Made by a program: the position numbers and the translations under genes. A DNA stretch of 64,000 nucleotides from the IMG/VR virus record IMGVR_UViG_3300037725_000018, positions 1 through 64,000 of that record, one strand, 5' to 3'. Under the pieces are notes generated by a model that made no database searches, was not told where the DNA came from, and saw only the letters and a program-made list of their open reading frames with translations. Positions within the stretch are counted from its first letter, which is position 1. The number at the start of each line of letters is the position of its first letter. The DNA comes from a virus. This document shows positions 3,464 through 43,734 of the stretch, piece by piece.

Positions 3464-4198
3464 CTATTCATACGTACTTAAAAACCTTTTTGGAATGTCG
3501 TTGTGAATAACCCGCGTTTCCGGCCAAACGTCTCTTGCTCTTGGCTCTAACCCATAATAGTTAAATCCATGCAAATTCAACTTGTGTGCGATATAGCTTT
3601 GGGCGTCGTATCTCATGTATTGAGGCTCTTTTTGGACCATCGGGGTGTATCCATCTTTTTTCATAGCTTCAACGTCAATTACTAAGATTGCATCCCCGTA
3701 ACTACCGTTAAGAAGCCGATCCGGGGTCGTCACGGTAAACACCGCATTTCCGATGGACCTATTTTTTAGACCTCTTGTTTGGTTTGTAGCGTTTAAACCT
3801 TCATCTAAAATCTTATCTACATACTTCGGTTGAGTAGCATGGAAAAGTTCATACTCGGTTCTTCCGACGTTTTCCCAAAAACGTCTGTTGTAGATTTCCT
3901 TCCAGTCTACTTCGGTTTCTTCGTAAATTTCACCCAAACTGTACATGTCGCGCATAAACCAGTCTTCAATCCCACTCACTTCGGGGTATGAAGAATCCGG
4001 GGCGGTTATGATTTTATCCTCTTCAGGAAGAACGACGAACTTGTGTCCATTTAAAGTTTCTTCGGTGTAATCTACGCCTTCTTCATCTAAAACACTTAAA
4101 GCTTCCCGGTAATCAAGATCCCAAAAAATGTCTTCAAGTTCAGCGTCAGACATTCCATTGGACCTTGCCTCACGAAGTAAATCATTAAATCGAATCAT
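3464..4198 (-). CDS. leader-bearing ADP-ribosyltransferase-like internal protein (Alt analogue?)
   Basis: A 244-residue protein. The first 11 residues, MIRFNDLLREA, resemble the capsid targeting leader of T4 internal proteins and contain an L-R-E/A prohead-protease-type site. Residues about 117-180 read YELFHATQP, then EGLNAT, NAVFTVTTPDRL, and GDAILVIDVEAM. That is the order of the H-x-T, G-L, hydrophobic-F-T and G-D...V-x-D elements of the ADP-ribosyltransferase/RNA 2'-phosphotransferase (H-Y-E-like) fold. T4 Alt is a packaged, injected ADP-ribosyltransferase that modifies host RNA polymerase, so leader plus ART fold suggests a functional analogue. The fold call is inference; it could be another small ART-like domain without activity. 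Confidence 0.55.
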   Translation of the reverse strand: MIRFNDLLREARSNGMSDAELEDIFWDLDYREALSVLDEEGVDYTEETLNGHKFVVLPEEDKIITAPDSSYPEVSGIEDWFMRDMYSLGEIYEETEVDWKEIYNRRFWENVGRTEYELFHATQPKYVDKILDEGLNATNQTRGLKNRSIGNAVFTVTTPDRLLNGSYGDAILVIDVEAMKKDGYTPMVQKEPQYMRYDAQSYIAHKLNLHGFNYYGLEPRARDVWPETRVIHNDIPKRFLSTYE

Positions 4199-4201
4199 AG
4201 T

Positions 4202-4300
4202 TCAAAGTTCAAATACTTGCTTTATTTTAGGTGGACGATTTGACTGGTTTTTACGGATTCTTTTGATAGCTTTTGAGATCCGTTTTTCGTTTTCAGTCAT
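4202..4300 (-). CDS. 32-residue basic micropeptide
   Basis: A short frame from ATG at 4300 to TGA at 4202 encodes 32 residues, strongly basic (KRISKAIKRIRKN). It fills the gap between two leader-bearing genes: its ATG is 4 nt past the stop region of the gene upstream, and its stop lies 3 nt before the next ATG. The spacing fits the operon, but the frame is short enough to be chance. The I-x-K-A-I-K-R-I-R-K helix resembles the basic half of the leader found in its neighbours. Confidence 0.4.
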   Translation of the reverse strand: MTENEKRISKAIKRIRKNQSNRPPKIKQVFEL

Positions 4301-4303
4301 AAC

Positions 4304-5053
4304 TTAAATGAAGTTTGGGTTATTTCGGACTCTAGCAACTTTCGAACGCCTACGTTTTTTGTATTCTTTTTCAGCGTCTTCACGGAGATCGTCCGGGTCG
4401 CTCATGTTTTCAACAACGTCTCCGGTTTCGTGTTCGGCATGAATCGCTCGGTTGATAAGATTGATTTTTTCTTTCTGTGGAAGCCTTCGTATGTTCTTTA
4501 AGTCTTTGTAAATTTCATATATGTCTTTGTGAACACCGTCTCCGAAAATTTGTTGAAGACGATCTACGTGTTCTTTCATCGCTTCAATCCAAACGTCTTC
4601 TTCTGTTGGGAAGGAGTACGGGTCGTCGGGGTCCATTTCATATTTGTCTGCCACCCGGTTATATATATCGGACCTTGAAACGTGATATCCCCATATCCGG
4701 TTATCAAGCTCTAACCTTTGTGGAATGGCTCTCCACTCTTCAAACGGGAGCTGGTAAACATCAATATTCATGCTTCTTAGACCCATTCCGATTCGTTCCA
4801 TATAGTCAGCATATGCTTCCCAACCTAAAAATCCGTGCTCCACGGACTTCCGGCGAAATGCTGGTTTAAGGATTTCAGCAATCCGTTCCCAATCGTAAGT
4901 GTCCCAATTGCCTGACATAGAACGGTAAAAATATTCCCGGACCATACCGTTTAAGTCGTCACGAAATATTCTTGAAGGGTCTTCTTTCTCCTGAAGGAGA
5001 AGGCTTACCTCTTCTCGAATTATTCTTCTAAGTCTTTGTTCGGAATTCATCAT
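4304..5053 (-). CDS. leader-bearing late protein, unknown function
   Basis: A 249-residue protein starting with MMNSEQRLRRIIREEVSLL, the clearest form of the basic leader shared by many late proteins here, with an I-R-E/E site. The remainder is rich in Trp, Tyr, Arg and acidic residues (WDTYDWERIAEIL, GYHVSRSDIYNRVADKYEM) and ends in a basic tail KKRRRSKVARVRNN. I recognise no domain. It lies between two other leader proteins and upstream of the ADP-ribosyltransferase-like gene. Inferred: a packaged internal protein. Confidence 0.7.
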   Translation of the reverse strand: MMNSEQRLRRIIREEVSLLLQEKEDPSRIFRDDLNGMVREYFYRSMSGNWDTYDWERIAEILKPAFRRKSVEHGFLGWEAYADYMERIGMGLRSMNIDVYQLPFEEWRAIPQRLELDNRIWGYHVSRSDIYNRVADKYEMDPDDPYSFPTEEDVWIEAMKEHVDRLQQIFGDGVHKDIYEIYKDLKNIRRLPQKEKINLINRAIHAEHETGDVVENMSDPDDLREDAEKEYKKRRRSKVARVRNNPNFI

Positions 5054-5065
5054 CTAACTAAATTT

Positions 5066-7097: not shown

Positions 7098-7874
7098 TCA
7101 AGAAAGCTTTGGTTGAACGTAACTTTCCCAATACCCGTATAGCCTGTTAATCAACCGCTTTTCCTGCCGTTTTGACACCGCACGAAGAAGTTGATCGGGC
7201 AAAAACTCCCCGAACACCCAGTCTTTGAACTTCCGGAAGTCCCCATTCCAGTTTCTTTTGTTTAAAGAGTTAAGGAGGCTAGGTTCACCGACAAGTTCTT
7301 GAACCTGTGCAACTGCCGATTGAAAGTAAGCGTTCACTTCCAAAGGGTCGGAAAAGTATGTTCTCCACTCTTCGCTTGAAATCTCTTTTGAGTCATACGT
7401 TGCAATTTGGTCAAGCCCAAGGTCAGTTCTTTTATCGTCTAAGTAGTGGATGTATTCGTGAATAACAAGATCAAACACATTTCTTAGGTTTTGAGAAATT
7501 TCACGTCTTATTTCTTTTTCATCCTTTTTATGCGGGTTGTCTTCAAGAATATACAACACAATGGCAGGGCCACCTTTAAGCTCGTTTGTATACATTCCAT
7601 CTGTTCGAGACTGGCTTTTTTCACCAAACACGATTCGAAGCGGATTTTTAGCTTCCTTTTCGTATTCTGTAAACCAATCGATCCGGACATACGGGCTGTT
7701 GTATCTCCCGATGTATTGGATCATCCCACCACTTTTTATGTACTCTAAGAGGCTTTCAAACACGTCAACGGCTTGTTTTCGCATTAGCTTATCCGTTTCC
7801 GCGTCTTCGGTTAAGCGGTAAGATACTCTGTGTTCAACTCTTTCGATAAGGTCTTTTTTACCCACCATAGCCAA
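7098..7874 (-). CDS. HExxH zinc metalloprotease-like protein
   Basis: 258 residues. Residues 138-147 read I-H-E-Y-I-H-Y-L-D-D, a full HExxH zinc site (H139, E140, H143). A Glu at about 179 (S-D-P-L-E-V-N-A-Y-F) is placed as a third ligand in a following helix, as in gluzincin-like phage peptidases. The protein starts MAMVGKKDL and overlaps the end of the upstream neck-type gene by 17 nt. A metalloprotease inside the neck/tail operon could process virion or host envelope proteins; that role is inferred. The ligand spacing should be checked against a structure. Confidence 0.6.
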   Translation of the reverse strand: MAMVGKKDLIERVEHRVSYRLTEDAETDKLMRKQAVDVFESLLEYIKSGGMIQYIGRYNSPYVRIDWFTEYEKEAKNPLRIVFGEKSQSRTDGMYTNELKGGPAIVLYILEDNPHKKDEKEIRREISQNLRNVFDLVIHEYIHYLDDKRTDLGLDQIATYDSKEISSEEWRTYFSDPLEVNAYFQSAVAQVQELVGEPSLLNSLNKRNWNGDFRKFKDWVFGEFLPDQLLRAVSKRQEKRLINRLYGYWESYVQPKLS

Positions 7875-10165: not shown

Positions 10166-11929
10166 ATGCCGGATATAGATTTTAGAATTACATCTGCCGA
10201 TTATATTTATCTTGACTTCGATTACGACAAAGAGCTTGTCAACTACGTCAAGGAAAACATTCCCGGAAGGAAGTATGTCAAGCGAAGCAAAGAGTGGAAG
10301 TTTAAGCTTAACCGAAACTCGCTTCCTGACTTCTTGAAGTTTTTGCAAGATTGGGATTTAGATAAGTCAGACGTTCCCCGTTCCATTCAAAACCGGATGG
10401 AAAGCATCATTAAAGAAGCAAAGAAGGTAGAAAAACAGAAAGAGAAAAACAAGCGCCTTGCGGAAAAAGATGAAGTTGAAGACTTCAAGGTTTACGGCCT
10501 CGCACAAGGCATGAACCCGTATCCGTTTCAAGAGGTAGGAATCAAATACGCGGTTGAAAATAAAAACGTCATTATCGGAGACGAACCGGGCCTCGGAAAG
10601 ACTGTGGAGAGTATAGCGGCGATGCACAAGCAAGATGCATATCCGGTTCTTGTCGTATGTCCAGCTTCTTTAAAAGACAATTGGAAAAGAGAATGGAACA
10701 TGTGGCTCCCCCGAAAAACGGCAAAGGTCCAGCACTCTAGCGAAGGGCTTGACCTTCGGGCTAGAGTATGCATTATCAACTACGATATTCTATGGAAGTA
10801 CAGGAAAAAACTTCGAGAACACGATTGGGGTGGTCTTATACTTGACGAGAGCCACTACGTAAAAAACGGGTCTGCAAAACGTTCTAAGGCCGCAAGACAG
10901 ATTGCACGGAGAATAGACGGGCCAAAGATCCTTCTTTCCGGAACGGCTGTTGTGAACAGGCCAAAAGAGCTTATCAACCAACTCAAGATCATCGACCGCT
11001 TTGAAGAAGAGTTTGGTGGATTCTATCCTTTCGTTAAACGCTACTGCGATGCTGAACAAACTCGGTGGGGGCTAGACTACGACGGGGCCTCAAATGTAAA
11101 GGAGCTTCACGAACGTTTAAAGAAACTTTGCTATATTCGAAGAAACAAAAAAGAGGTTCTTGAAGACCTTCCAGATAAACAGCGTTCGTATATTGAATTT
11201 GATATTGACAACCGGAAAGAATACGACGTGGCAGAAGAGGACCTTGCCGCCCATCTTCGAAAACAAGAGATTACAGATGAAGACTTCCTTGAAAAAATAG
11301 AAAGTCTAGATGCCCTTGAACAACAGGAAAAAATTCGAAAGGAGTATGGAGCGAATGAAATTAGCGGATACGCCGAAAAATTGATGAAGCTTGCAGAGCT
11401 TCGAAAACTTGCAAGCAAAGGTAAGCTAAAGAAAGCGAAAAGGTGGATCAAGGACTTTTTGAAGTCCGGGGAGAAGCTGGTTCTTTTCGCCCACCACAAG
11501 TTTGTTATCCAAGAGATTGTAGATGAATTTGACGCTTTAAAAATTGACGGTTCCGTTCCGGTCGAAGACAGGCAAGACGTTGTAGACAAGTTTCAAAACG
11601 ACGATTCTGAAAAGGTGATTGTCTTGAACATACAAGCTGGAGGAACGGGGCTTACGTTAACAGAGTCTTCAAATGTCGTATTCCTTGAACTCCCTTGGAC
11701 CCCCGCAGAAGTAAGCCAAGCAGAAGACCGTTGCCACCGGATAGGACAAGAAGATTCTGTGAACGTTTACTTCCTTCTAGCAAAAGAAACGATAGACAAA
11801 GACATGTTTGAAGTCCTAAAAAAGAAAAGGATTGTCACGGAACAGATAAACGCCGGGAAAGATATAACAGACGAAGAAGGAAACGTCGTGAAAGGTGTTA
11901 TTAAGAAGATTACAGACAGACAGTCTTAA
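10166..11929 (+). CDS. SNF2/SMARCAL1-type DNA helicase-translocase (UvsW-like role)
   Basis: A 587-residue SF2 translocase. Motif I is GDEPGLGKT (138-146), motif II is DESH (227-230), motif III is the LSGTAVVNRP segment. The C-terminal RecA lobe carries motif V (NIQAGGTGLTLTE) and motif VI (QAEDRCHRIGQ, 518-528). The first 60 residues resemble the HARP-like region that precedes the motor in SMARCAL1-type annealing helicases. In T4, UvsW does the related job of fork regression and recombination. It heads a run of small genes: the next ATG is 7 nt after its stop. The E-P in motif I replaces the usual E-M. Confidence 0.92.
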   Translation: MPDIDFRITSADYIYLDFDYDKELVNYVKENIPGRKYVKRSKEWKFKLNRNSLPDFLKFLQDWDLDKSDVPRSIQNRMESIIKEAKKVEKQKEKNKRLAEKDEVEDFKVYGLAQGMNPYPFQEVGIKYAVENKNVIIGDEPGLGKTVESIAAMHKQDAYPVLVVCPASLKDNWKREWNMWLPRKTAKVQHSSEGLDLRARVCIINYDILWKYRKKLREHDWGGLILDESHYVKNGSAKRSKAARQIARRIDGPKILLSGTAVVNRPKELINQLKIIDRFEEEFGGFYPFVKRYCDAEQTRWGLDYDGASNVKELHERLKKLCYIRRNKKEVLEDLPDKQRSYIEFDIDNRKEYDVAEEDLAAHLRKQEITDEDFLEKIESLDALEQQEKIRKEYGANEISGYAEKLMKLAELRKLASKGKLKKAKRWIKDFLKSGEKLVLFAHHKFVIQEIVDEFDALKIDGSVPVEDRQDVVDKFQNDDSEKVIVLNIQAGGTGLTLTESSNVVFLELPWTPAEVSQAEDRCHRIGQEDSVNVYFLLAKETIDKDMFEVLKKKRIVTEQINAGKDITDEEGNVVKGVIKKITDRQS

Positions 11930-12187: not shown

Positions 12188-12595
12188 ATGAATCTTGTTG
12201 ATTACTTAAAGGCGTACGGGGTAAAAACTAACTTTACGTTTACAAGCTACCACCTAGACCGGGAAAGCGAACTTAACGAATTCAACCCCGGAGTTGGAAC
12301 CGAAGTTGGAACGGGTCCATTAAAGCTTCAAATGGGATTTTATAAAAATTCTCACGAAAAAGTGACAACCTTTGTTGGAACTTCTTATTGCCACAGCATA
12401 ACAAATTACCTTCACGTAGGCGTAATATTGGGAGCAGCAACTGGATACGATCACTTTGAACTTGGTATCCCCTTTACAGGGGCAATTGTTCCTTTTGTGT
12501 CGGTGGGAAGGAAAAACCGCGTTCAAATTGGTTTTGTGCCTTCGGAGGGAGGAGGCGTGTTCAGCGGAAGAATTGAAATCAATTTTGACTGTTAG
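12188..12595 (+). CDS. beta-rich hypothetical protein
   Basis: 135 residues, almost entirely beta-type, with FNPGVGTEVGTG, MGFYKNSHEKVTTFVGTSY, and GVILGAATGY followed by GAIVPFVSVG. The N-P-G-V-G, F-Y-K-N-S and G-x-x-T-G-Y order is seen in a family of short beta-barrel-like proteins in phages and bacteria. No signal peptide or membrane anchor is present, so an outer-membrane role is not supported. The following gene starts 8 nt later. Confidence 0.5.
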   Translation: MNLVDYLKAYGVKTNFTFTSYHLDRESELNEFNPGVGTEVGTGPLKLQMGFYKNSHEKVTTFVGTSYCHSITNYLHVGVILGAATGYDHFELGIPFTGAIVPFVSVGRKNRVQIGFVPSEGGGVFSGRIEINFDC

Positions 12596-12602
12596 CAATC
12601 CA

Positions 12603-12896
12603 ATGATTTTAACCAAAGAAGAGCAAGTCTTGTTCGCTAAAAGATTCTGTGAAGAAACTGTTGACGGGTTTAGTCCTACAAGAGAAGAAAACACAGTTAC
12701 ATATAGCTTAGACGAAATCAAGTGGAAATTCACGGTTACAAGATTTGGAAGCCTAAGTATTCAAATCAAAGAATCCGGCAAGACGATCTCTAAGTCTGCA
12801 TACGGTCTATACCCTCAATACAAACCCATAGGCGATTCGGTATCCCGGTGGAGACAGATCGTTGCCAGAAAAATGAATCTAGACTATAGAAAATGA
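12603..12896 (+). CDS. small hypothetical protein
   Basis: 97 residues from ATG at 12603. The frame is open further upstream but overlaps the previous gene heavily; the ATG 8 nt after that gene's stop is the sensible start. It has a KEEQVLFAKRFCEET helix, a beta-type centre (VTYSLDEIKWKFTVTRFG) and a basic end. Its stop overlaps the next start (ATGA). Not recognised. Confidence 0.55.
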   Translation: MILTKEEQVLFAKRFCEETVDGFSPTREENTVTYSLDEIKWKFTVTRFGSLSIQIKESGKTISKSAYGLYPQYKPIGDSVSRWRQIVARKMNLDYRK

Positions 12897-13114
12897 GAAG
12901 AAGCAAAACAAAAATGGAAGGAACAGTTAACGTGAAATGCTTGAATTTGATTGAGATTTTAGACCACAGGGGGAGTTTGGGGGTTCGGTTTTCAAAAGAA
13001 GAGGAACAAACAAAGAAACGGCTCGTTTCAATAGCTGAAGATAACGGGTACAAGGTAATCGAAGAAGAAAACTTTGTAGCTGTATTCAAACCAAACGAAA
13101 TCAAAGACGTATGA
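12893..13114 (+). CDS. small hypothetical protein
   Basis: 73 residues, basic start (MRRSKTKM) then LNLIEILDHRGSLGVRFSKEEE and a final FVAVFKPNEI strand. It overlaps both neighbours by 4 nt (ATGA at each junction), indicating translational coupling in the plus-strand operon. No known domain. Confidence 0.55.
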   Translation: MRRSKTKMEGTVNVKCLNLIEILDHRGSLGVRFSKEEEQTKKRLVSIAEDNGYKVIEEENFVAVFKPNEIKDV

Positions 13115-25840: not shown

Positions 25841-27256
25841 TTACCGATTCTCAATTCCGGCAAGCTTCTTCATTCTTTCAGGGAAGCTTGCGTCTTCGTT
25901 GAGAATCTGTTTTGTCTCATTTGAAGAAGGACGTGTAGAGCCTTGTTGTCTAGAGGAACTTAGGTTAATTTGCTCTGTTAGACTCTCGGCTTGGTCCTTC
26001 TTGGTCCGTTGACTAGACTGACTTGCGGAGTCGGTAAGGTTCTCTGCAAGGTTTGTGTATGTCAACTTGACCTCACGAATATTTTGTGCTCGATCAAAGG
26101 AATCGATAACACGTTTCTTTTGGCGTTCGTTAAGGTCGAACGCATTGGTAAGCTTATTCGTGTAGAGCAGTTTGCTATTAATGAGATTAACCTCATTCAT
26201 TTCTTCTCGCAGGATTTTGAAAGCCTGTCGAAATTCGTCTAGCTGCTCTTTAAGCTTTTCGTTTTCACGACGAAGACTTCGGTAAGACTCTTCCATTTCG
26301 TCTTCGTCTTCCATTTCGTCGTAATCCATTTCTTCCATGTCGTCTTCCTCTTCAAGAAGAAGATCGCCATAGCTTACGTAAGATTCGCCAATGGTAGAAT
26401 CCGGCATGTCCTCTGCTTCGTAGTCCATCTCTCCGTATCCGTAGCCATAATCAAACTCTACGTAGTCGTCAGACGTGTCCATAAGATCGTCTACAACTTG
26501 GTCGTATGGACCGGAAACTGCGCTTGGCTCTTGCATTGGCTCGTCTCGGTCAACAGACGTTACGCCGTATTCACGAAGCGTACTTTCGAGTTCATCCACG
26601 TCGATTTCGTACATTACGTCGTCACCGCCGCTTCTGGAACGACCATTTTCAAGATCGTTAAGAAACTCGTCAATTTGTCGGTCTAGATCCCTTTCTTCAA
26701 TGTCCTCTTCAAGTTCGGATACAACTCGGTCTAGATCCAACTTCTCGTGAACGTCGTCCATTGCCATTGCTCCGTATCCGTCTTCGTGGTCGTCCACGTC
26801 AAGCATTGGAGCATCTTCGTGGCCTCCGTCGTGTTGAACCTCGTCGTAAGAAAGCTCGTCTGCAAGATCCGGGTCGCGGTGGCGCTCGCCTCCCGCAACC
26901 TCTTCATCGAGTTCAGAGAGGAAGTTTGCGATATTGTCCCAATCGCGCTCGGAAAGTCCAAAGGACTCTTCCATATCTTCTTCTTCCTCGTCCTCTTCTT
27001 CGTCTTCTTCGTCTTCATCGTCAAGGTCCATTTCGACCTCTTCTTCATCTTCCATGTCTTCCATGTCTTCTTCGTCGTAGTCACCTTCCATTTCTTCTTC
27101 GGCTTCCCGTTGAAGTTGGTCGGCTACAACTTGACGAATCTTTGGCGTGAAAGCTTCACGAAGATAGTCAAAAGCGTTTTCTTTTGCTACTTCTCGAAGC
27201 GTTTTGGCGTCAGCCATCGCTTCTTTGAGCATTTCACTATCTGTTTGATCTTTCAT
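25841..27256 (-). CDS. prohead core scaffold protein (T4 gp22-like)
   Basis: 471 residues, extremely acidic: about residues 55-105 are almost pure Glu/Asp with Met. The conserved scaffold element is at about 350-415 (REEMNEVNLINSKLLYTNKL, RQKKRVIDSFDRAQNIREVK). It occurs in gp22 relatives and should direct shell assembly before digestion. Several L-x-E sites (e.g. L-K-E/A near residue 12) fit removal by the protease. The end, FPERMKKLAGIENR, shares an M/F-K-x-L-A-G-I/L motif with the 73-residue protein at 33581. It is about twice the length of T4 gp22 because of the acidic middle. Confidence 0.85.
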   Translation of the reverse strand: MKDQTDSEMLKEAMADAKTLREVAKENAFDYLREAFTPKIRQVVADQLQREAEEEMEGDYDEEDMEDMEDEEEVEMDLDDEDEEDEEEDEEEEDMEESFGLSERDWDNIANFLSELDEEVAGGERHRDPDLADELSYDEVQHDGGHEDAPMLDVDDHEDGYGAMAMDDVHEKLDLDRVVSELEEDIEERDLDRQIDEFLNDLENGRSRSGGDDVMYEIDVDELESTLREYGVTSVDRDEPMQEPSAVSGPYDQVVDDLMDTSDDYVEFDYGYGYGEMDYEAEDMPDSTIGESYVSYGDLLLEEEDDMEEMDYDEMEDEDEMEESYRSLRRENEKLKEQLDEFRQAFKILREEMNEVNLINSKLLYTNKLTNAFDLNERQKKRVIDSFDRAQNIREVKLTYTNLAENLTDSASQSSQRTKKDQAESLTEQINLSSSRQQGSTRPSSNETKQILNEDASFPERMKKLAGIENR

Positions 27257-27996: not shown

Positions 27997-28027
27997 ATAA
28001 CTCTGTGTGTTTTGATTGATTAGTATT

Positions 28028-28588
28028 TTATTGTGTTTTCTCTCTTGTTTCGCTAACAACATCGGGAACAGCACTCCTTATTGTTCGTCCCCATTTTTTG
28101 CTATCTTTCATCCTGCTGCGTCTTACGTTTCCTCTAAAAAGTCTTGTTCCGGACTGTTCTTTAGGAATAACATACATCGCAACACAGTTTCCTTCTCTTG
28201 GGTGGCCTTCAAATCCGGCTATGCCTGAAGATTGCGGGTCAACAAAACCAATAACACTCATTCCGTCTTCATAAACTCCAGCAGCTAGTTTTGTGCTAAC
28301 AACTTGGCCTCTGTCGGTATCTTCAATATCTCTTCTTCTTTTGAAGCTCTCTCTGATCCTGTCTTCAACTGGATTAATAATGTTTTCAACTAGTGCCCTT
28401 TCTGGAATATCTGTCAAATCTTGATTTCTTAGTGTCTCCCAAAGATCATTTCCCATATATGGGTCTAGTTCATAAAGATTTGAAACACTTTCAGTAACTC
28501 TTCGTCTTGATCTTCTTGAATTACTGTTCAGGGTCTTTCGAACTTCCTCACGAATGATGCGTTTAAGTTTGCGTTTTGATAGTCTCAT
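28028..28588 (-). CDS. leader-bearing late protein
   Basis: 186 residues beginning MRLSKRKLKRIIREEVRKTL, the consensus form of the leader with an I-R-E/E site, followed by an Arg/Ser-rich patch (RRSRRRVTESV). The body includes VVSTKLAAGVYEDGMSVIGF and CVAMYVIPKEQSGTRLF, suggesting an alpha/beta domain I cannot name. Its first 60 nt are nearly identical to those of the next gene (28633-28923), as if the leader had been copied between genes. Confidence 0.7.
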   Translation of the reverse strand: MRLSKRKLKRIIREEVRKTLNSNSRRSRRRVTESVSNLYELDPYMGNDLWETLRNQDLTDIPERALVENIINPVEDRIRESFKRRRDIEDTDRGQVVSTKLAAGVYEDGMSVIGFVDPQSSGIAGFEGHPREGNCVAMYVIPKEQSGTRLFRGNVRRSRMKDSKKWGRTIRSAVPDVVSETREKTQ

Positions 28589-30316: not shown

Positions 30317-30328
30317 CTTATATATCTA
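30317..30328 (-). promoter_or_regulatory. possible late-promoter-like motif
   Basis: The minus strand reads GATATATAAGACTG about 25 nt before the ATG at 30294, overlapping the last codons of the upstream gene. It matches the core only. Confidence 0.35.
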
Positions 30329-30575
30329 CCACTCTTTCCTTGTTGCCATTCTTGACAAATCTGTAGTCGTATATGCTTTCTTCCCCGGCCTGTGGCCTTT
30401 CGATTTCGTACCCGTTGTTTTTAGCCCACATCTTCATCTTCTCAAAAGCGTGGGTTAAATTAGACCCTCTTGTTATGTGCTCGATTTCATAGTCTTTTTC
30501 TTTTGGAGCAGTAAGCCCAAGCCTCACAACGTCAGAAAAAAGCTTTTCGCGTAAGATATCCTTAAAAGTAATCAT
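30318..30575 (-). CDS. leader-bearing (type B) small protein
   Basis: 85 residues, start MITFKDILREKLFSDVVRLG with an L-R-E site. The rest (HAFEKMKMWAKNNGYEIERP, ESIYDYRFVKNGNKERV) is a small alpha/beta domain. It overlaps the previous stop by one base. No function recognised. Confidence 0.65.
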   Translation of the reverse strand: MITFKDILREKLFSDVVRLGLTAPKEKDYEIEHITRGSNLTHAFEKMKMWAKNNGYEIERPQAGEESIYDYRFVKNGNKERVVDI

Positions 30576-30904
30576 TATCCATCAAACCATAATTCAGCAA
30601 CTTGACCGTCAAATCTAACTTTATTTAAGTCACTTCTTTTAGCAATGGAAGAAAGCATATTCGGATTCAAGGTTAGACCACCGGGAAGAGTCGAAGGGTT
30701 AATCTCTACTATATAAATAGGTTCGCCCATTCGCATATCTTCCTTATAAACTTTGTAGCGAGAGGTATCACCTAAACCCATAGTTTGAAGAGCAGAGTCT
30801 ATCTTCCGGGGAACACTAGGCCCGGACACTGTTTCTTGTTCAGACAAAACCTTTTTTGTTTCTTCACGAACTATTTTCTGAAGTTTTTGGTTACTAATTT
30901 TCAT
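30575..30904 (-). CDS. leader-bearing late protein
   Basis: 109 residues from the ATG at 30904 (MKISNQKLQKIVREETKKVL); the frame opens 66 nt earlier but that would overlap the previous gene. The leader has an L-S-E/Q site at residues 21-23. The body (YKVYKEDMRMGEPIYIVEIN, LNKVRFDGQVAELWFDG) is a small beta-rich domain. Function unknown. Confidence 0.65.
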   Translation of the reverse strand: MKISNQKLQKIVREETKKVLSEQETVSGPSVPRKIDSALQTMGLGDTSRYKVYKEDMRMGEPIYIVEINPSTLPGGLTLNPNMLSSIAKRSDLNKVRFDGQVAELWFDG

Positions 30905-30929: not shown

Positions 30930-31901
30930 TTAATCATTCTCCCCGTTTGGGCCTGTTCTCCAATCTTCACGGCCCAAATACTCGTCTTTTAGCGAAGCGC
31001 AAAATGCTTCCGGGTCGTCAAGCTCGTCTTCCATTTTGTCCATACAATTTGAGAAAAACCCTTCTGTGTCGTCTTTTGTTTTTCCTGTAAGGCTTCTAGC
31101 AAAGCTTTGAAGGCTTTCTTCGTCCCATCCGGGGGGAAGGTTTTCCCATCCTATGTACGGATTCTCTTCCGCTAACAAATGTTCTTTAATATACGCTCTT
31201 GCTTTTCTTCGAAAAGCCTCTTCTTTTACTTCCGGGGGAATGTCGTCGTGACCAGTTTCGGCAAAATCTTTTGCATCTTCCATCGAAATGTCGTCAGCGA
31301 TAGACTTGATCTTTTCTGCCAAGTCGTCGTCAAGCTCGCCCAAGTCAAGTTCTCCTTGCTTGTAAGCGTAAACCATTCCGAAAAGCCTCTGTTGGGTTTC
31401 AGACTTTGATTTTTCGTTTACAACAGATTCATCAAGCCGTTCTCTTGATTTTGGGTGCATCCCAATCCTACCAAAGTATTCCCGGTTAAGCTCTCGGATT
31501 GCCTTTTTTGGGTTTTGAAGAAGCATGTCTACCTCTTCTTCGTTGATGTAGTAAGATCCGGCCCCTTCAATACCTTTATCAATGAACCTGTAGTCCTTGT
31601 GATAACCTCTAGCGGCCTTTAGCCCAAAGATAGTATATGGACCTTCAAACTCGCTTTCCTCTAGAGGAACGGCCACTAAAACGTTCATCGGCTCGCTGTA
31701 GTGAACTTCTTCGAATGCATCTTCTTGGTGAAGCATCCGATACGTCGTGTTGTACAAGTCGGTAATTTCTTGGAAGGTGTCCGTATACGGCCTGCCGGGG
31801 TTATACTCTCTGTAGTGGCTAAACGGAGAACGCACAGGTCGTCCACGATTTGCATAATACGCCTCGTGAATCAAACTTCTAATGAAATCTTTACTGTTCA
31901 T
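30930..31901 (-). CDS. leader-bearing large internal-protein candidate
   Basis: 323 residues, start MNSKDFIRSLIHEAYYANRG with an I-H-E/A site in the classic T4 position. The first half (FEEVHYSEPMNVLVAVPLEE, SYYINEEEVDMLLQNPKKAI) is an alpha/beta region of unknown type. The second half is acidic and helical and ends EDWRTGPNGEND. It is the longest of the simple leader proteins and lies two genes from the protease. No catalytic motif recognised. Confidence 0.65.
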   Translation of the reverse strand: MNSKDFIRSLIHEAYYANRGRPVRSPFSHYREYNPGRPYTDTFQEITDLYNTTYRMLHQEDAFEEVHYSEPMNVLVAVPLEESEFEGPYTIFGLKAARGYHKDYRFIDKGIEGAGSYYINEEEVDMLLQNPKKAIRELNREYFGRIGMHPKSRERLDESVVNEKSKSETQQRLFGMVYAYKQGELDLGELDDDLAEKIKSIADDISMEDAKDFAETGHDDIPPEVKEEAFRRKARAYIKEHLLAEENPYIGWENLPPGWDEESLQSFARSLTGKTKDDTEGFFSNCMDKMEDELDDPEAFCASLKDEYLGREDWRTGPNGEND

Positions 31902-31907: not shown

Positions 31908-32309
31908 TTACTGGTTTTCTAAAGTTCCTTCGGCTGTTGACTTCATTTCTTCGATGAACTGCTCTACGGATTCAACGTCAAACTCTCCTGCCGCGTCGGA
32001 AACGTCGTTAACAATTTCTTCAATTGAAACGGTTGGAAAACTTGACGTGGTTGTTTTGAACCGAAGAATTTGCTTGCCCCGAAGGTCGGGGTTTTGAAGA
32101 GAAAAAGAAATTTGAAGAACGCTTCTAGATCGGCCAAAGTATTCTACGGTAACGTCAAACCCTTCATACGTTCCGTTATAGGTGAAATACGTTCCGGCCC
32201 TCCCTGAACGATATAGGTCCATTTCTTCACCTAGGTTTTCCCCAAGCGTTCGAAGCTCTTTTTCAAGTTCGGAAAACGCCTCTTTAAGTAAACTGTTGAG
32301 CCGAATCAT
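31908..32309 (-). CDS. leader-bearing (type B) protein next to the protease
   Basis: 133 residues, start MIRLNSLLKEAFSELEKELR with an L-K-E/A site, nearly the same leader as the ADP-ribosyltransferase-like protein (MIRFNDLLREA). The body has FDVTVEYFGRSRSVLQISFS, resembling the leader protein at 5066-5596. Its start overlaps the protease stop by one base, so the two are coupled. Confidence 0.7.
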   Translation of the reverse strand: MIRLNSLLKEAFSELEKELRTLGENLGEEMDLYRSGRAGTYFTYNGTYEGFDVTVEYFGRSRSVLQISFSLQNPDLRGKQILRFKTTTSSFPTVSIEEIVNDVSDAAGEFDVESVEQFIEEMKSTAEGTLENQ

Positions 32310-33007
32310 TATTCAATTTCGTATTCTTCAGACATTTCTTCAATAAGCTCGCTTGCAAAACTGTTTACGTCTTTCCACCTATCCATTTCTTTCTTTGCCT
32401 CCCGGCTTTCGGTAATAAGACCCTCTTGCACGACCCCTTCGTTTACTTCGTCCATGAACGCGCCGTGTGTTGAAGGGTTTGAAACAAAGTCCCAAGCGAT
32501 AAGATCAAAGTCATTTCCAACTCGAAGCGTTCCGTCTGTTTGTTCTTTCACGCTTCCCATTCCACGGCTTGAAATTCCGATATTCACGTTGTCGTTAAGA
32601 AGACTTTTTAGAATTCGACCGTTGGGCGTGTCAAGAACTTTTACTTCCCCCATAAGATCGTTTCCTTTCCACCACACATCCGTAACCATGTGTGAAACGT
32701 TTTTTAGGTTCACAACGGAACTGTCCGGGTGGTCAAGTTCGCCTAATGCTCTGCGTTCATTAATGAGCTTCTTATAATCTTCAACTTCCCGTTTAAGCAC
32801 TTTTTTAGGATATATCCGACCGTTCTGGTTTTGGGCATTGGCCCGTTGAAGAATACCTTTTACAACAAGGGGCTCGTCAGAGTCCCCCGCAGCCTCGTCA
32901 AGTCGAGTCTTTTTCTTTTCGTACCTGAAAGGCCGAACATCAACAATGTCCGCTTTTTCTTTTTCCGGCTTTGTATCAAGCTGTTGTTTTGTTTCTACTT
33001 CTGCCAT
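32309..33007 (-). CDS. prohead maturation protease (T4 gp21-like)
   Basis: 232 residues of the herpesvirus-assemblin/gp21 serine protease group. After an exposed N-terminal tail there is a core with NGRIYPKKVL (62-71), the catalytic His in GELDHPDSS (H93) and the nucleophile Ser in IGISSRGMG (S146 or S147). A L-D-E/A-A site at about 36-39 could be self-cleavage. In T4 this enzyme cuts capsid, scaffold and internal proteins after (L/I)-x-E. It is surrounded here by proteins that carry such a site in their leaders. No Shine-Dalgarno. Confidence 0.9.
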   Translation of the reverse strand: MAEVETKQQLDTKPEKEKADIVDVRPFRYEKKKTRLDEAAGDSDEPLVVKGILQRANAQNQNGRIYPKKVLKREVEDYKKLINERRALGELDHPDSSVVNLKNVSHMVTDVWWKGNDLMGEVKVLDTPNGRILKSLLNDNVNIGISSRGMGSVKEQTDGTLRVGNDFDLIAWDFVSNPSTHGAFMDEVNEGVVQEGLITESREAKKEMDRWKDVNSFASELIEEMSEEYEIE

Positions 33008-33037: not shown

Positions 33038-33337
33038 CTAAAACAGTTCCGTAACACTTGAAATCATTCGAGAAACTTTGTCTGCGTCGTTTGCTCCAAT
33101 GATAATACCGTTTGTTTCTCCGTACTCAACGATGTATACTCCAACGTCCATTGTCCGCTGGTCTTCAACGGCATAAATTTCAATGTCTCCACCCATTGTT
33201 CGAAGACTTCCGATCTCTTCCCGGATTTCAATTGGACCTACACCTTTGCCAACAACCTCTCCGGGAGACAGGTGGGATTCGGAGATAAGATTTGAAACTT
33301 CTTCTCGAATAATACGTTTAAGTTTTTGTGGAGACAT
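33038..33337 (-). CDS. leader-bearing late protein
   Basis: 99 residues, start MSPQKLKRIIREEVSNLISE with I-R-E/E and I-S-E sites. The body (IEIREEIGSLRTMGGDIEIY, VGVYIVEYGETNGIIIGAND) is a compact beta-alpha domain. No function recognised. 31 nt upstream of the protease gene. Confidence 0.7.
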   Translation of the reverse strand: MSPQKLKRIIREEVSNLISESHLSPGEVVGKGVGPIEIREEIGSLRTMGGDIEIYAVEDQRTMDVGVYIVEYGETNGIIIGANDADKVSRMISSVTELF

Positions 33338-33879: not shown

Positions 33880-34437
33880 TTATCGCTCAACGTCAATAAA
33901 GTTTCGGATGTTCTTTGCAATCTTACCCGGTTCTGCGTCTGCTCCAAGCTTATCTTTTATTTCGTCTTCTCCGATTTCGCCGTCTTCAAGCCTTCCTTGA
34001 AGCCCCTCAAGATCGTCAGCAACGTCTTCAAGCTCATCGGTTTCATAGTCGTCAAAAGCCTTCCTAAAGTCTTCAGCGGTGTTTCCGCTAAGGTCTTTAT
34101 CTGCAACCCCAAGGTCTTCAAGCTCTTTTCCTATATCTTTTGTTTTCTTTTCGGTTTCGCCGCTAGAGTCGTCGCCTCCACCGCCGAACTTCTCTTTTGC
34201 TTTCTTCTCTATTTTTTTAGCTTTCTTGAAGGCAGGGTGTCCACTTCCATAACTTAGAGCGGTTTTTAGCTTGATTTCTTTTCCCGTTTTTGGGTTTTCA
34301 ATCTTGGTGTTATACACCTTTTTCATTTTCTTATTTTTCTCTTCTCTAACCACTTGACGGACCATCTTTCTAATACCGCGAATGGCCTTTTGCTTTTTTA
34401 CTTCTTCGTTTATAATTTGTCTTAGTCGTTTTCTCAT
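33880..34437 (-). CDS. leader-bearing basic/acidic protein
   Basis: 185 residues, start MRKRLRQIINEEVKKQKAIR followed by a second leader-like copy (IRKMVRQVVREEKNKK), both with protease-type sites. Residues 35-85 are Lys-rich (FKKAKKIEKKAKEKFGGGG) and the last 90 residues are acidic and helical. Probably a core/internal protein with a DNA-binding middle. Not recognised otherwise. Confidence 0.65.
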   Translation of the reverse strand: MRKRLRQIINEEVKKQKAIRGIRKMVRQVVREEKNKKMKKVYNTKIENPKTGKEIKLKTALSYGSGHPAFKKAKKIEKKAKEKFGGGGDDSSGETEKKTKDIGKELEDLGVADKDLSGNTAEDFRKAFDDYETDELEDVADDLEGLQGRLEDGEIGEDEIKDKLGADAEPGKIAKNIRNFIDVER

Positions 34438-35780: not shown

Positions 35781-35797
35781 TTCACTTTATATATAGA
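35781..35797 (-). promoter_or_regulatory. late-promoter-like motif
   Basis: The minus strand reads CTATATATAAAGTGAAG about 25 nt before the ATG at 35758, a full match to the extended motif. Confidence 0.55.
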
Positions 35798-35826: not shown

Positions 35827-37731
35827 TTACAAGGTTTCATCTAGCAATTCTTTGAGTCTATCATTTTTTTCTTCAAGGGCTGACTCGTCCATATATGTAT
35901 CTTTCATATGATCTTCGTTTCCTTCGTCTTCTTTGTCTTCGTCTTCGGTGTATGTTTCATGAATGAGCCGTCTTTTTCTGTTGAAATGTTTCTCTAAACT
36001 TGAAGAAAGAGCCATTGGGCTTCCTCCTTGGTAGTTGTGAGTTATATCCGAAGACTTGTTTCTAAGTTGATTTGAAAGGTCTTTCATTCCTGAAACATCA
36101 TCGTCTCCGCCTCCAAGATCATTTCCACCTTCATCTTTATCTAAGTCTTCTAGTTCGTCTTCGGTGTTGTCAATGTCGAAGTTCTGGATTTGTGAGCTTC
36201 CACTCATTGCCAAATCACTTGGCGTCCCGTAACTCATTCCCGTCTTTACGGGATCGTTGCCTTCACGTTCGATTTGATCCTTTCGGAAGTTTCTCTTCCA
36301 GTCCCGAACCTTCTCTTTGTATTCTTCATCGATTTCGTCTTCGGACATGTTAAACACTTCCTTTGCAATCTTTTCATCCGATAGGAAAGGCATTTCTCGC
36401 ATGTCACGCGCAAGACTAACCTTCCGGCTAAGAAACTCAATCCGTTCTTGTTCTGCAACAATGCTTGGGTTTGTAAACGAGAAGTTAAAGTCAATAAGAT
36501 CACTTCCCCTGTACCCTCGGACATACAGGTGAACAACGGCGATTTTTTTCAACTCTCTTGCAATAGACCGTTGAAGGTTTTCTACGGCGTTAGAAAACTT
36601 AATGGACTCTTGGGCAAGAGTGGCTTTTCCTTGAATTTCTTGTTCGTATCCTAAGAAAGCATTTGGAATCTTTAAAGCCGACATAAGCTTCTTCCGAAGA
36701 TACTCAACGTCTTCCATCGCTTGATATTGAAGGCCCTGAAGACTTTGAATTTCCGTTCCGGATTGGTTTCCCCGAACCGGAAGAAAAAAGTCTTCAAGCA
36801 TATTCTGCATGTTGAATTCCAAGTTGTATTGTCCCGTTTCCGGGTCAACAAGCGGGGTTTGCTGAATGTCGTTCATTACGTCGTTCATATAGCTTTCAAT
36901 TGCGTCAGGTTCGATGTTCCCAACGTCAATTTTGAAAACCCGCTTCTCCGGTGCCCTCATGATCCGGTGAATCAACATAGCCTCTTCCATCAAAGAAAGC
37001 TGTTGCCAAATCTTTCGGCCATTTTCAATGATGCTCTTCCCGTACGGAAAAAAGTTCCCGTCATTTATGAATCGAAAGTGTGCAACTTCCCATTCTTCAA
37101 AAGCAACTTGCCCTTGCGTGCTGCTTGTGTATGCGGACCCGTGGGCATTCCCTTGATAGACAAATTTAATCTCGTCTCCGTGGGTATCTTCTTGTCTTAC
37201 AATTTCATACGGGGAAAGTGGGGTAACTTTTGTCACTCCAACGTCTTCGTTGATCGTCATGTGAAGAAACAAGTCCCCATACTTTGCAATTGAGCGTGCC
37301 CACCACCGGGCGTTAAAATTCACATCCAGAATATTGAAAACTAAATTTTCAAGAACAGACTTGATTTCCCCATTTTCACACTTTACATCCAAAATCTGTC
37401 CATATGCGTCTTTAGTTGCAACTTCGTTTGCGTAAATATCAAGAGCAGATGCAATAATCGGGTCTTGGTCCATATCTTCATAGGTTTGAAAAAGCTCAAA
37501 CCTGTTTGCATGAAGAGCCTGTGAAGACGAGTATCCGCTTGAAGAGTAATGGCTTTGCCCGGACCCATAAAGCTTTTTGAAACGCCCGTCCGCAAGGTCT
37601 TGTGAAATAGATTGGCTACTACGTAAGTCTGCCGTTGTCACGTCCTCTCCATCCGAAGAGCGGACAATCACCTCGCTGGAAAAGAGACGTGAGAGGGCAT
37701 TTCTAATACTTCCTCTTGACTTTTCTGCCAT
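35827..37731 (-). CDS. portal vertex protein (T4 gp20-like)
   Basis: 634 residues. The portal pattern is clear: FELFQTYEDMDQDPIIASAL (about 80-100), YANEVATKDAYG, ARWWARSIAKYGDLFLHM, VAHFRFINDGNFFPYGKSII, EEAMLIHRIMRAPEKRVFKI and LRKKLMSALKIPNAFLGYE. Portals form the dodecameric DNA gate at the head vertex and nucleate prohead assembly in T4. The last 110 residues are acidic and of low complexity (EDELEDLDKDEGGNDLGGGD), longer than in T4 gp20. It is placed between the terminase and the protease, in the standard order. Confidence 0.92.
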   Translation of the reverse strand: MAEKSRGSIRNALSRLFSSEVIVRSSDGEDVTTADLRSSQSISQDLADGRFKKLYGSGQSHYSSSGYSSSQALHANRFELFQTYEDMDQDPIIASALDIYANEVATKDAYGQILDVKCENGEIKSVLENLVFNILDVNFNARWWARSIAKYGDLFLHMTINEDVGVTKVTPLSPYEIVRQEDTHGDEIKFVYQGNAHGSAYTSSTQGQVAFEEWEVAHFRFINDGNFFPYGKSIIENGRKIWQQLSLMEEAMLIHRIMRAPEKRVFKIDVGNIEPDAIESYMNDVMNDIQQTPLVDPETGQYNLEFNMQNMLEDFFLPVRGNQSGTEIQSLQGLQYQAMEDVEYLRKKLMSALKIPNAFLGYEQEIQGKATLAQESIKFSNAVENLQRSIARELKKIAVVHLYVRGYRGSDLIDFNFSFTNPSIVAEQERIEFLSRKVSLARDMREMPFLSDEKIAKEVFNMSEDEIDEEYKEKVRDWKRNFRKDQIEREGNDPVKTGMSYGTPSDLAMSGSSQIQNFDIDNTEDELEDLDKDEGGNDLGGGDDDVSGMKDLSNQLRNKSSDITHNYQGGSPMALSSSLEKHFNRKRRLIHETYTEDEDKEDEGNEDHMKDTYMDESALEEKNDRLKELLDETL

Positions 37732-38800: not shown

Positions 38801-39103
38801 CTAACCAATCCGAACTTGAAAGTAAAACTGGTTGCCATACATTGCAACTTTCAAAATATCCATTCTTGCTCCATAAGAAAGGTCGTCGATGTTTAACTCA
38901 AAGTCTCGAACACCCGGCTTTAAGTACACCTCCCATGTGTCGTCTAGAAGCTGTGAAATTTGATCTACTTCGCGCCCTTCTACTCCGATTGCGCGTGTAA
39001 TAAGACGTTTAAGAGGTTCTGGATACTGCTCAAGGTTCTCTTGTTCTTTGATTACACGTCTTGTTTCTTTTTGAATAATTCTTCTAAGTTTTCTTTTGTT
39101 CAT
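38801..39103 (-). CDS. leader-bearing late protein
   Basis: 100 residues, start MNKRKLRRIIQKETRRVIKE with an I-K-E/Q site. The body (LKRLITRAIGVEGREVDQIS, DTWEVYLKPGVRDFELNIDD) ends in a beta strand FYFQVRIG. Not recognised. Late-type promoter motif about 50 nt upstream. Confidence 0.7.
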   Translation of the reverse strand: MNKRKLRRIIQKETRRVIKEQENLEQYPEPLKRLITRAIGVEGREVDQISQLLDDTWEVYLKPGVRDFELNIDDLSYGARMDILKVAMYGNQFYFQVRIG

Positions 39104-39152: not shown

Positions 39153-39167
39153 TGTTTATATATCTTT
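39153..39167 (-). promoter_or_regulatory. late-promoter-like motif
   Basis: The minus strand reads AAAAGATATATAAACACG upstream of the gene at 38801-39103, overlapping the stop region of the preceding gene. Core TATATAA matches; the GTG extension is absent. Confidence 0.4.
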
Positions 39168-39562
39168 TAGTAAATGTCAATAACAATGTCGCCAGACTTC
39201 GGCTTAAAGTTTTCTTTTCTCATAACCGTAATTACGGTAAGAGCAAGAACCGAAGGATCTCTTGTTCGTTCTAAAACTCCAACCAAGTTTAAATCATAGG
39301 TATTATCTCGAATTACGAATTCGTCGCCCACGTCCATCCGGTTATTGATTAGATACTGAAGAATCTTGTCGGACGCCTCTTCTGCCGTTGCAATAATTTC
39401 TTCCTCGTCAATTTCGTTTCCCTGTCCGTGGCGAAACCTTCGTTCATCTGCATGTCTAGACAAATCAACATTGACTTCAATTGTAACGCTCTCCAAAAAT
39501 TTGCCAATTGAACGCTCGGCAATTTTTTTAGTAAGCTCTTCAAGCATATCGTTTAACTTCAT
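39167..39562 (-). CDS. leader-bearing DUF4258/RelE-like protein
   Basis: 131 residues, start MKLNDMLEELTKKIAERSIG with an L-E-E site. Residues 34-50 read LSRHADERRFRHGQGNEI followed by DEEEIIATAEEASDKI. The H-A-x-E-R...R-H-G...I-x-x-E-E-I order plus the late strands (DLNLVGVL, LALTVITVMRK) is like the DUF4258/RelE-type fold of small RNase-like proteins. If packaged and injected it could act early on host RNA; activity is not shown. Overlaps the next gene by 4 nt. Confidence 0.55.
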   Translation of the reverse strand: MKLNDMLEELTKKIAERSIGKFLESVTIEVNVDLSRHADERRFRHGQGNEIDEEEIIATAEEASDKILQYLINNRMDVGDEFVIRDNTYDLNLVGVLERTRDPSVLALTVITVMRKENFKPKSGDIVIDIY

Positions 39563-39825
39563 GACTTTTTACGTTTGGTTTTCTTTCTTTTTCTAGAACC
39601 TTTTTTGTAGCTACTTTTTTTCCGGTGAGCTTTTTTGGCTGCCTTCGAACGCCTTCTTTTTTCTTTACTTGACATTCGGACGCACCGACCATCTTTTGCT
39701 TTCTTACCCTTTGGGCAGTCAAGCTTACGGACTTTCTTCCCGTTTCTATAAACGGTTTTGTACCGCGCTTCTTCAATTTCTTTTCGAATAAGTTTTCTTA
39801 GTCGTTCCCTTGTTAATTTTTTCAT
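39559..39825 (-). CDS. leader-bearing, very basic DNA-binding protein
   Basis: 88 residues. The leader is MKKLTRERLRKLIRKEIEEA with an I-E-E/A site. The rest is almost only Lys, Arg and Ser, with a short YRNGKKVRKLDCPKGKK and C-V-R segment holding two Cys. It resembles a histone-like or internal-protein composition and could neutralise packaged DNA. It overlaps both neighbours by 4 nt (ATGA junctions), directly after the terminase pair. Confidence 0.7.
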   Translation of the reverse strand: MKKLTRERLRKLIRKEIEEARYKTVYRNGKKVRKLDCPKGKKAKDGRCVRMSSKEKRRRSKAAKKAHRKKSSYKKGSRKRKKTKRKKS

Positions 39826-41978: not shown

Positions 41979-41996
41979 GACACTTCGATTGTTTGT

Positions 41997-42320: not shown

Positions 42321-42406
42321 ATTATCAGTTGTTAAGTTGATGAAAGATTAATGAATGTAGTAAATAATGTTGCCATGCTAGTGTAGACGTTTGGTGTTTG
42401 GCGTTG

Positions 42407-42832
42407 TTAATTTGTTTGTCCGACGACATATGCCGAACCGATAACTGCAGCCGCTCCACCGACAAAGTAAAGCCACTTTCTCCGGTTTGCGGAATTTAGC
42501 TGTTCTCTTAGGCCCTCTATTTCGTTGTTTTTTTCTTCAAGAAGCTCGTTTCGGTTTTTTATTCTCCGGTCTTTGATTCCAATAAGAAGGCTATCTTTTT
42601 GCCGAAGGGCTTTAAGCGTCCGGACTTGTGACTCCAAATTTCGTTTTAACCTTTGAAGATCTTGAATCTTCTTCTGTTTCTTTTGAATATCGTCTCTTAC
42701 CCGTTCAAGCTGCTTGACAGGAACACAAACGCTATCTTGTGACGCAGAAGAAGACGAAGAAGATTGCCCAAAGGCAACTGTAGGGGACAACAGCAAAAAT
42801 GCTATAAGTAACGTAACAGACTTTTTAATCAT
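42407..42832 (-). CDS. signal-peptide/coiled-coil/C-terminal TM protein (spanin candidate)
   Basis: 141 residues from the ATG at 42832 (MIKKSVTLLIAFLLLSPTVA); an ATG at 42844 would add 4 residues. Residues 1-22 are a cleavable-type signal peptide ending V-A-F-G-Q with no lipobox Cys, followed by a Ser run. Residues 40-115 are coiled coil, and the last 20 (WLYFVGGAAAVIGSAYVVGQ) are a membrane helix. It overlaps the N-terminally anchored coiled-coil gene upstream. The pair has the look of a spanin-type lysis cassette, but both partners would be anchored in the inner membrane, so the role is uncertain. Confidence 0.5.
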   Translation of the reverse strand: MIKKSVTLLIAFLLLSPTVAFGQSSSSSSASQDSVCVPVKQLERVRDDIQKKQKKIQDLQRLKRNLESQVRTLKALRQKDSLLIGIKDRRIKNRNELLEEKNNEIEGLREQLNSANRRKWLYFVGGAAAVIGSAYVVGQTN

Positions 42833-43187
42833 TTTTGTCACCATAATTGTTTTGAAGCCAATCTCTTACATTTTCTTCATTTTCTTTCGGTTTGGGGTCT
42901 TCCCGGAGGTCTTCTCTTATCTTTTTCTCTTCTTCTTCAAGATTGTTTAAGTCTTTTTCAAGACCCTCTTTCTCCTTTTCAACTTCACGTTCTTTTTCTT
43001 GAAGTTTTTGGTCTTCGTTTTGAAGCTTGTTTTGCCTCCGGAGGCTCTTTTCGATTTTTTCTTGTGCGGAGTCGTCAAAAAACACAAGATAGCCCAAGAT
43101 AATTGACAACCCAAGGGCTATGTACTCCCAAGATTTCTTCAAGAAAGACAAAATAGCTTCTCCAATACGTATAAATGTTTCAATCAT
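42825..43187 (-). CDS. N-anchored coiled-coil protein (i-spanin-like)
   Basis: 120 residues. A membrane helix at about 20-38 (YIALGLSIILGYLVFF) follows a short amphipathic start. A long Glu/Lys coiled coil comes next (KLQEKEREVEKEKEGLEK) and then a polar end. This is the topology of i-spanins (Rz-like), and it overlaps the next gene as Rz/Rz1 pairs do. Its ATG overlaps the stop of the frameshift extension upstream. Confidence 0.5.
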   Translation of the reverse strand: MIETFIRIGEAILSFLKKSWEYIALGLSIILGYLVFFDDSAQEKIEKSLRRQNKLQNEDQKLQEKEREVEKEKEGLEKDLNNLEEEEKKIREDLREDPKPKENEENVRDWLQNNYGDKND

Positions 43188-43369
43188 GGCCTTATGTTTT
43201 TAGCGATTTTTCTTCCGTCTATATCCCCACCTTGAAGCTGGATTTTCTCGATAGCTTTGTTTACAATTCCGGTTATGTGTTGCTCTGCATTCATAGGAGA
43301 AGAAATTGCAACATCATAAATCGCGTCAACCGCTCTTTCATACTCTGCTTGGCCGACGTTTTCATCTAC
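43184..43369 (-). CDS. -1 frame extension of the leader protein at 43366-43734
   Basis: 61 codons reading VDENVGQAEYERAVDAIYDV, then AISSPMNAEQHITGIVNKAI and EKIQLQGGDIDGRKIAKNIR-P, ending at TGA 43184, which overlaps the next ATG. It has no initiation codon until an internal ATG 25 codons in. Its first codon directly follows the A-AAA-AAG-TAG end of the upstream gene in the -1 frame. It is best explained as the C-terminal part of a fusion made by -1 frameshifting (183 residues in all). Confidence 0.65.
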   Translation of the reverse strand, partial: VDENVGQAEYERAVDAIYDVAISSPMNAEQHITGIVNKAIEKIQLQGGDIDGRKIAKNIRP

Positions 43370-43734
43370 TTTTTTTTTGCTCTTTTCACCACTTCTCGAA
43401 CGGCTTTTTCTTTGCTTACTCCCCGTTCCATAAGCTGACGAACCGCCCGTTTGAACGATTCAAGCTTTTTTGAAGATTCGTTTAAGCCATCTTTTCTTTG
43501 AACGTAGTCTTTAGCTTGCTCGATAGCTTCTTGGTCTTTTGTATCCGTGTCTTCGTTCCATCCTAGGCTAACAAAGTCGAAGAACTTTTTCTTCTCTTTA
43601 TCATTTAATTCTTGTGGAGAATCAATTCCAAACACGTCCATCATCTGTTTGAAATATTTTTGGTACTCCGTCTCTTCATTTAAAATTTTTGAAACCTCTT
43701 CTTGAATGAAGCTTCTAATTTGATCTTTATTCAT
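43366..43734 (-). CDS. leader-bearing head-region protein with slippery 3' end
   Basis: 122 residues, start MNKDQIRSFIQEEVSKILNE with I-Q-E/E and L-N-E/E sites. Residues 22-60 (EYQKYFKQMMDVFGIDSPQE, LNDKEKKKFFDFVSLGWNED) form a small domain that I recall from marine T4-like head-region proteins. Residues 95-118 are a basic helix. The last codons are GCA AAA AAA AAG TAG: the heptamer A-AAA-AAG sits in the zero frame right before the stop, a textbook -1 slip site. The reading continues in the -1 frame to 43184. Confidence 0.75.
   Translation of the reverse strand: MNKDQIRSFIQEEVSKILNEETEYQKYFKQMMDVFGIDSPQELNDKEKKKFFDFVSLGWNEDTDTKDQEAIEQAKDYVQRKDGLNESSKKLESFKRAVRQLMERGVSKEKAVREVVKRAKKK

Follow-up and report, generated by a model that had tools for sequence, protein, structure and literature searches.

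The window analysed here comprises bases 1–64,000 of the 223,357-base IMG/VR virus record IMGVR_UViG_3300037725_000018, from an uncultivated phage. It encodes 20 proteins that begin with one of two kinds of short leader peptide, all on the strand that carries the capsid gene (minus; Table 1). Translations assigned 13 of these to a basic K type (KLxxIIxEE, 15–22 residues) and seven to a short, T4-like type (M-I-x-F-N-D-L-L-x-E). A reading of the window from its sequence only had listed these genes as sharing N-terminal leaders, and every one was present on the minus strand where it had been placed. Its division into two types also held, except that gene 30930 (genes are named here by their lowest coordinate) starts MNSKDFIRSLIHEA and belongs to the short type, not to the K type. 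The divergent K leader of 5066 comes after an N-terminal extension, and gene 30575 probably spans 30575–30904, its start corrected from 30970 because the K leader begins at an internal ATG.

The number of leaders exceeded chance expectation. A 16-column position-specific scoring matrix (PSSM) trained on 13 leaders of the window gave, at ≥15 bits, 14 N-terminal hits among the 401 open reading frames of the record, compared with 0.25 expected from shuffled proteins; the 14 include training sequences, but 66728 and 133582, which lie outside the window, were not used in training. A hydrophobic-hydrophobic-x-E motif within residues 1–17 was also present in 9 of 21 other genes of the 24–44 kb late block (2.5 expected; maximum of 8 in 200 shuffles).

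We place the phage in the T4 superfamily because it encodes a gp23-type capsid protein, a gp20-type portal, a T4-type terminase and an S77 prohead protease of the gp21 family. The protease gene sits in the middle of the leader-gene cluster, and its translation contains the motifs GELDHP and ISSRGMG and, close to the N-terminus, a candidate self-processing site, TRLDE/AAG. Its best-ranked annotated record is Microcystis phage Mel-JY01 (56% identical). In the capsid protein, a predicted maturation site, QLVNE/A, aligns with ELLRE/[AST] of the capsid proteins of relatives, where gp23 is matured.

Both leader types share the layout of the T4 capsid targeting sequence (CTS). In T4, the first ten residues of IPIII are required for incorporation, experiments have assigned targeting to CTS residues 4 and 7 and processing to residues 8 and 10, and gp21 cuts after L/I-x-E (PMC9026906). 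T4 ipII and ipIII begin MKTYQEFIAE/A in the sequences that we read. The leaders found here follow the spacing hydrophobic-xx-hydrophobic-hydrophobic-x-E, with hydrophobic residues at T4 positions 4, 7 and 8 and Glu at 10. Short leaders agree with the T4 leader position by position (MIRFNDLLRE/A), and the K core L8-x-x-I11-I12-x-E14 has the spacing of IPIII Y4-x-x-F7-I8-x-E10, to which the K type adds a basic N-terminal extension. A second (L/I)-x-E occurred at leader positions 18–27 in 60.6% of 226 non-redundant K-leader proteins, clustering at residues 21–22, compared with 9–11% in later windows of the same proteins. Shuffled sequences gave 22% (maximum 30.5%), and the leader scoring matrix does not cover E21 and E22. 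The proposal of a T4 gp21-type link, made in the sequence-only reading, is thus borne out by the S77 protease, the matching capsid site, the agreement with IPIII spacing and the co-occurrence of S77 in other phages described below.

We therefore consider it likely that the leaders act as T4-type capsid targeting sequences, in a system that resembles that of T4 on a larger scale and loads the head with proteins to be delivered. Late in infection, the N-terminal leader would recruit each precursor to the prohead core, and the S77 protease would cut after hydrophobic-x-E, either in the leader core (IIxE) or at the downstream site (LxE, around residue 22). Mature cargo would remain in the head and enter the next infected cell together with the DNA, with short T4-like and basic K leaders doing the same job. 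For T4, and only for T4, a leader has been shown to be sufficient for packaging a foreign protein, and T4 Alt is ejected into the host, where it modifies the host RNA polymerase (PMC9026906); by analogy, we infer that the cargo of the present phage is injected into its host.

Table 1. Leader genes and head-module genes of the window. A slash marks a predicted cleavage site. Bit scores are from the K-leader PSSM and include its training sequences. LR756508 is an uncultured 484-kb record.
Coordinates	Strand	Feature	Leader type	Evidence
3464..4198	-	Leader MIRFNDLLRE/A and possible ADP-ribosyltransferase cargo	short	T4-CTS spacing; Tox-ART-HYD1 E 8e-4, below cut-off
4304..5053	-	Leader SEQRLRRIIREEVSLLLQE and cargo	K	37.6 bits
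5066..5596	-	Divergent leader EESIIREYIRQVIHE/LG and cargo	K	22.5 bits
27455..27784	-	Leader MKISQRKLKRTIREEVQHLTEE/A and cargo	K	35.9 bits
28028..28588	-	Leader MRLSKRKLKRIIREEVRKTL and cargo	K	41.2 bits
28633..28923	-	Leader MRLSRRKLRRMIREELKEA and cargo	K	37.9 bits
29878..30294	-	Leader MKFDKLVSLLVE/E and cargo	short	Translation, short-leader scan
30318..30575	-	Leader MITFKDILRE/K and cargo	short	Homologue in LR756508 is K-led
30575..30904	-	Leader MKISNQKLQKIVREETKKVLSE/QE and cargo	K	32.6 bits; match 30833-30904
30930..31901	-	Leader MNSKDFIRSLIHE/A and cargo	short	Homologue in LR756508 is K-led
31908..32309	-	Leader MIRLNSLLKE/A and cargo	short	Adjoins protease; translation, short-leader scan
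33038..33337	-	Leader MSPQKLKRIIREEVSNLISE/S and cargo	K	Other side of protease; 37.6 bits
33356..33532	-	58-residue protein, almost wholly two K motifs	K	33.3 bits; LR756508 relative E 1.5e-11
33880..34437	-	Leader MRKRLRQIINEEVKKQ, further K-like motif and cargo	K	34.2 bits
37798..38757	-	Leader MITKKQIAHILTE/DE and cargo	short	Translation, short-leader scan
38801..39103	-	Leader MNKRKLRRIIQKETRRVIKE/Q and cargo	K	37.9 bits, training score; motif scan
39167..39562	-	Leader MKLNDMLEE/L and cargo	short	Translation, short-leader scan
39559..39825	-	Leader MKKLTRERLRKLIRKEIEEA and very basic cargo	K	29.2 bits
41997..42320	-	Leader MKINRRKIRRLVEREIRRQ and cargo	K	32.1 bits
43366..43734	-	Leader MNKDQIRSFIQEEVSKILNE/E and cargo	K	29.8 bits
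24048..25763	-	gp23-type major capsid protein		PF07068 E 3e-79
25841..27256	-	Putative scaffold/core protein, gp22-like by position, L-x-E-rich		Translation and position
27790-28074	-	Ribosomal protein bS21		PF01165, E 2e-12; beside capsid genes, same strand
32309..33007	-	gp21-family (S77) prohead protease		PF03420, 107 bits, E 1e-30
35827..37731	-	gp20-type portal protein		PF07230 E 3e-74

Behind the leaders, the proteins differ. An alignment of K-leader proteins from other contigs was conserved in the leader only, and at the 28028 locus a close relative (strain L011) keeps the first 64 bases, with a different cargo and syntenic flanks on both sides. Cargo also moves between leader types. 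Paralogues of the K-led 5066 cargo follow short leaders at 71359, 71826 and 198910 (E 2e-23 to 8e-8), and two short-type cargos have K-led homologues in LR756508, namely those of 30318 (45% identity over 73 residues, E 2e-17) and, via its L011 orthologue, 30930 (37% over 134 residues, E 2e-20). Most cargo had no family match, with six Pfam families represented among 122 cargo proteins. The matches that there were are suggestive: over the cut-off, Zeta_toxin for 129959 and HiPIP, an iron-sulfur protein, for 66728, and, among the relatives, Zeta/AAA_33 kinases, a SET domain, an exonuclease, LysM, a TseH-like domain and RMF. The cargo of 3464 may be an ADP-ribosyltransferase, which would parallel T4 Alt; this stays a lead because the AlphaFold model of the protein, built from two sequences, was unusable (mean pLDDT 34) and was set aside. 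Overall, the cargo is modular and exchangeable, most of it has no recognised fold, and it includes some candidate host-modifying enzymes.

Alternatively, the leader might stay on the protein as a helix that docks to the scaffold or shell of the prohead, with the proteins acting as core or head-assembly factors rather than as injected cargo. In favour of this, close strains share some leader genes beside the protease, 33356 consists of hardly anything but two motifs, and T4 IPIII has an effect on head assembly as well (PMC9026906). Against it, the Glu of the cleavage site and a second LxE immediately after the core are conserved, the cargo varies from strain to strain, and hypervariable runs of 15 genes would be unusual for assembly factors. 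We regard this explanation as unlikely. Far less probable still is a nucleic-acid-level signal, either for translation initiation or as a recombination seed for gene shuffling, to which the protein sequence would be incidental. In its favour, leader DNA at the swapped 28028 locus is retained at 84% over 64 bp. Within a single array, however, identical leader residues are encoded by freely varying synonymous codons, and therefore the protein sequence is what is conserved; this largely refutes the idea, and some proteins have the motif at the C-terminus instead.

The leaders extend beyond the window. Eight or nine further leader genes bring the record to about 29, with short leaders at 65289, 71359, 71826, 129959, 134005 and 198910, K leaders at 66728 and 133582, and an uncertain case at 139985. 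Among 958 genes from 58 viral loci around protease relatives and from the Mel-JY01 region, the PSSM gave 67 N-terminal hits, 9 hits elsewhere and 2 in shuffled N-termini; hits on terminases (L014 and L015) were taken as false positives. The longest array comprised 15 consecutive leader genes (L387), and LR756508 carries 34 leaders, on one strand throughout, several of them flanking its S77 gene. An exact degenerate DNA pattern for the K leader matched at least 120 stretches in IMG/VR, compared with none for a permuted pattern, and 12 stretches in 257 Gb of cellular genomes. Several of the cellular stretches were on contigs of metagenome-assembled genomes (MAGs) that carry tens of leaders; in the four MAGs examined, leaders were confined to a few contigs, and S77 was present in three of these assemblies. 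A convergent origin of the leaders, as basic amphipathic helices that are common in phage proteins and share no function, is refuted by the counts (14 found against 0.25 expected, and at least 120 pattern matches against none after permutation) and by near-absence from cells, even though the leaders are short and composition-biased and (L/I)-x-E is frequent in helices, and we give it next to no weight.

S77 was found in 16 of 24 leader contigs and in 3 of 14 random contigs (Fisher p 0.017). A T4-type portal was absent from all eight leader contigs without S77, so the T4 head module appears to be missing from those records. A pattern for the short leader, including CGN arginine codons, matched 56 stretches, with S77 in 6 of 11 long contigs (p 0.12, not significant); a stricter M-K-F variant of it found almost nothing in cultured phages. 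Searches of a phage collection with the leader peptides by tblastn were too insensitive for 23 residues, although they did point to LR756508. The expectation, from the sequence-only reading, that profile hits would fall mainly near gp21-like proteases was confirmed for contigs up to 200 kb, in which 56 of 68 listed leaders lay within 20 kb of the protease (27.6 expected).

Several observations weigh against this interpretation. On contigs above 200 kb, the expected proximity to the protease failed, with 9 of 59 listed leaders within 20 kb (9.0 expected). The claim that no leader gene lies in the early block held within the window, but two adjacent leader genes elsewhere in the record (133582 and 134005) are on the plus strand. 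Although 119 of 127 listed leaders agreed in strand, this is weak evidence, on which we do not rely because most genes of several contigs share one strand. (L/I)-x-E is a short motif, and 39% of K leaders were without the second LxE site. The eight leader contigs without S77 could have a non-T4 head. Finally, no clear K-type leader was found in the cultured T4-superfamily phages examined: there was no K-type match in T4, KVP40, P-SSM2, HTVC008M, AF3, OC, JS98 or Mel-JY01, one very weak match in Syn9 (E 0.26), and weak ones in immuto and phiM7.

The closest known system is that of T4 IPI, IPII, IPIII and Alt, which carry a CTS processed by gp21 and share with the proteins described here the spacing, the L/I-x-E site, the S77 protease and unrelated cargo behind one leader; the T4 cargo includes an ADP-ribosyltransferase (Alt). 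T-even phages are known to vary in their cargo (PMC3012670, PMC12373910, PMC9026906), and the principle of one leader shared by diverse injected proteins is also established for them (PMC3012670, PMC12373910). T4 has a handful of such genes, whereas the window has 20 and the record about 29; here there is also a second, basic leader type of 15–22 residues, often a second downstream LxE, and a K motif at two C-termini. We saw no cargo homology to T4 internal proteins. SPN3US/phiKZ-type phages, whose head and ejection proteins carry prohead-protease propeptides, are comparable according to published abstracts (PMC5694885, PMC10052503), in that a prohead protease processes many of their head proteins and the amount of protein ejected is large. 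No paper that describes the leader in phages emerged from text searches of the literature for its letters. Within the literature searched, three things appear to be new: the K-type leader, how large the repertoire is and how widely it occurs among uncultivated phages. With less confidence, although we lean towards it, we propose that uncultivated T4-like and huge phages use the K leader as a capsid-targeting signal not described before, placed N-terminally and sometimes C-terminally, and that it marks rapidly evolving sets of injected proteins, numbering 15 to more than 30 in each phage. Phage-injected proteins are largely unknown beyond a few model phages. If the leader is a packaging tag, one short motif would mark injected proteins across these phages, reading out many unknown host-takeover and anti-defence proteins from metagenomes and supplying ready candidates for counter-defence and host-takeover assays; it would also provide an independent tag with which foreign proteins could be loaded into phage heads.

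The bS21 gene and a weak match of the capsid protein to Flavobacterium phages hint at a Bacteroidetes host. In the abstract and passages of PMC9723584, Bacteroidetes phages that encode bS21 have it close to the genes for capsid, protease, portal and terminase, an arrangement shared by the window, in a region with variable hypothetical proteins; those parts of the paper do not mention leaders, and place bS21 on the strand opposite the capsid gene in the clades described, whereas in the window both share a strand.

Neighbouring genes 207462 and 208193 carry the K motif at the C-terminus (L009:11462-12187 and 12193-12981; record 207462-208981). The first protein contains two halves that resemble each other, and a portion of the second protein shows weak similarity (E 5e-4) to the insertion region of the LR756508 protease. 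As a class, C-terminal K motifs were not clearly above chance (8 cases, compared with 55 internal). In LR756508 itself, the S77 protease matches as two halves in one 576-residue frame (156.5–158.2 kb; L392:6481-8205), as though an in-frame insertion, for instance an intein, separated them.

Elsewhere in the window, a minus-strand gene (7098-7874) encodes a protein with the motif HEYIHYLDD, typical of zinc metallopeptidases, and no significant Pfam family, and a plus-strand gene (10166-11929) encodes a SNF2-type helicase with a sub-threshold match to the polyvalent-protein domain LPD3. The T4 late box TATAAATA was not generally present upstream of leader genes. A different motif, CTATATAT, occurs 31 times in the record, 26 of them on the minus strand (for example, at 35796, 37790, 9182 and 52943 in the window and at 130947), often 30–80 bases upstream of structural genes and of leader gene 129959, and is possibly a late promoter.

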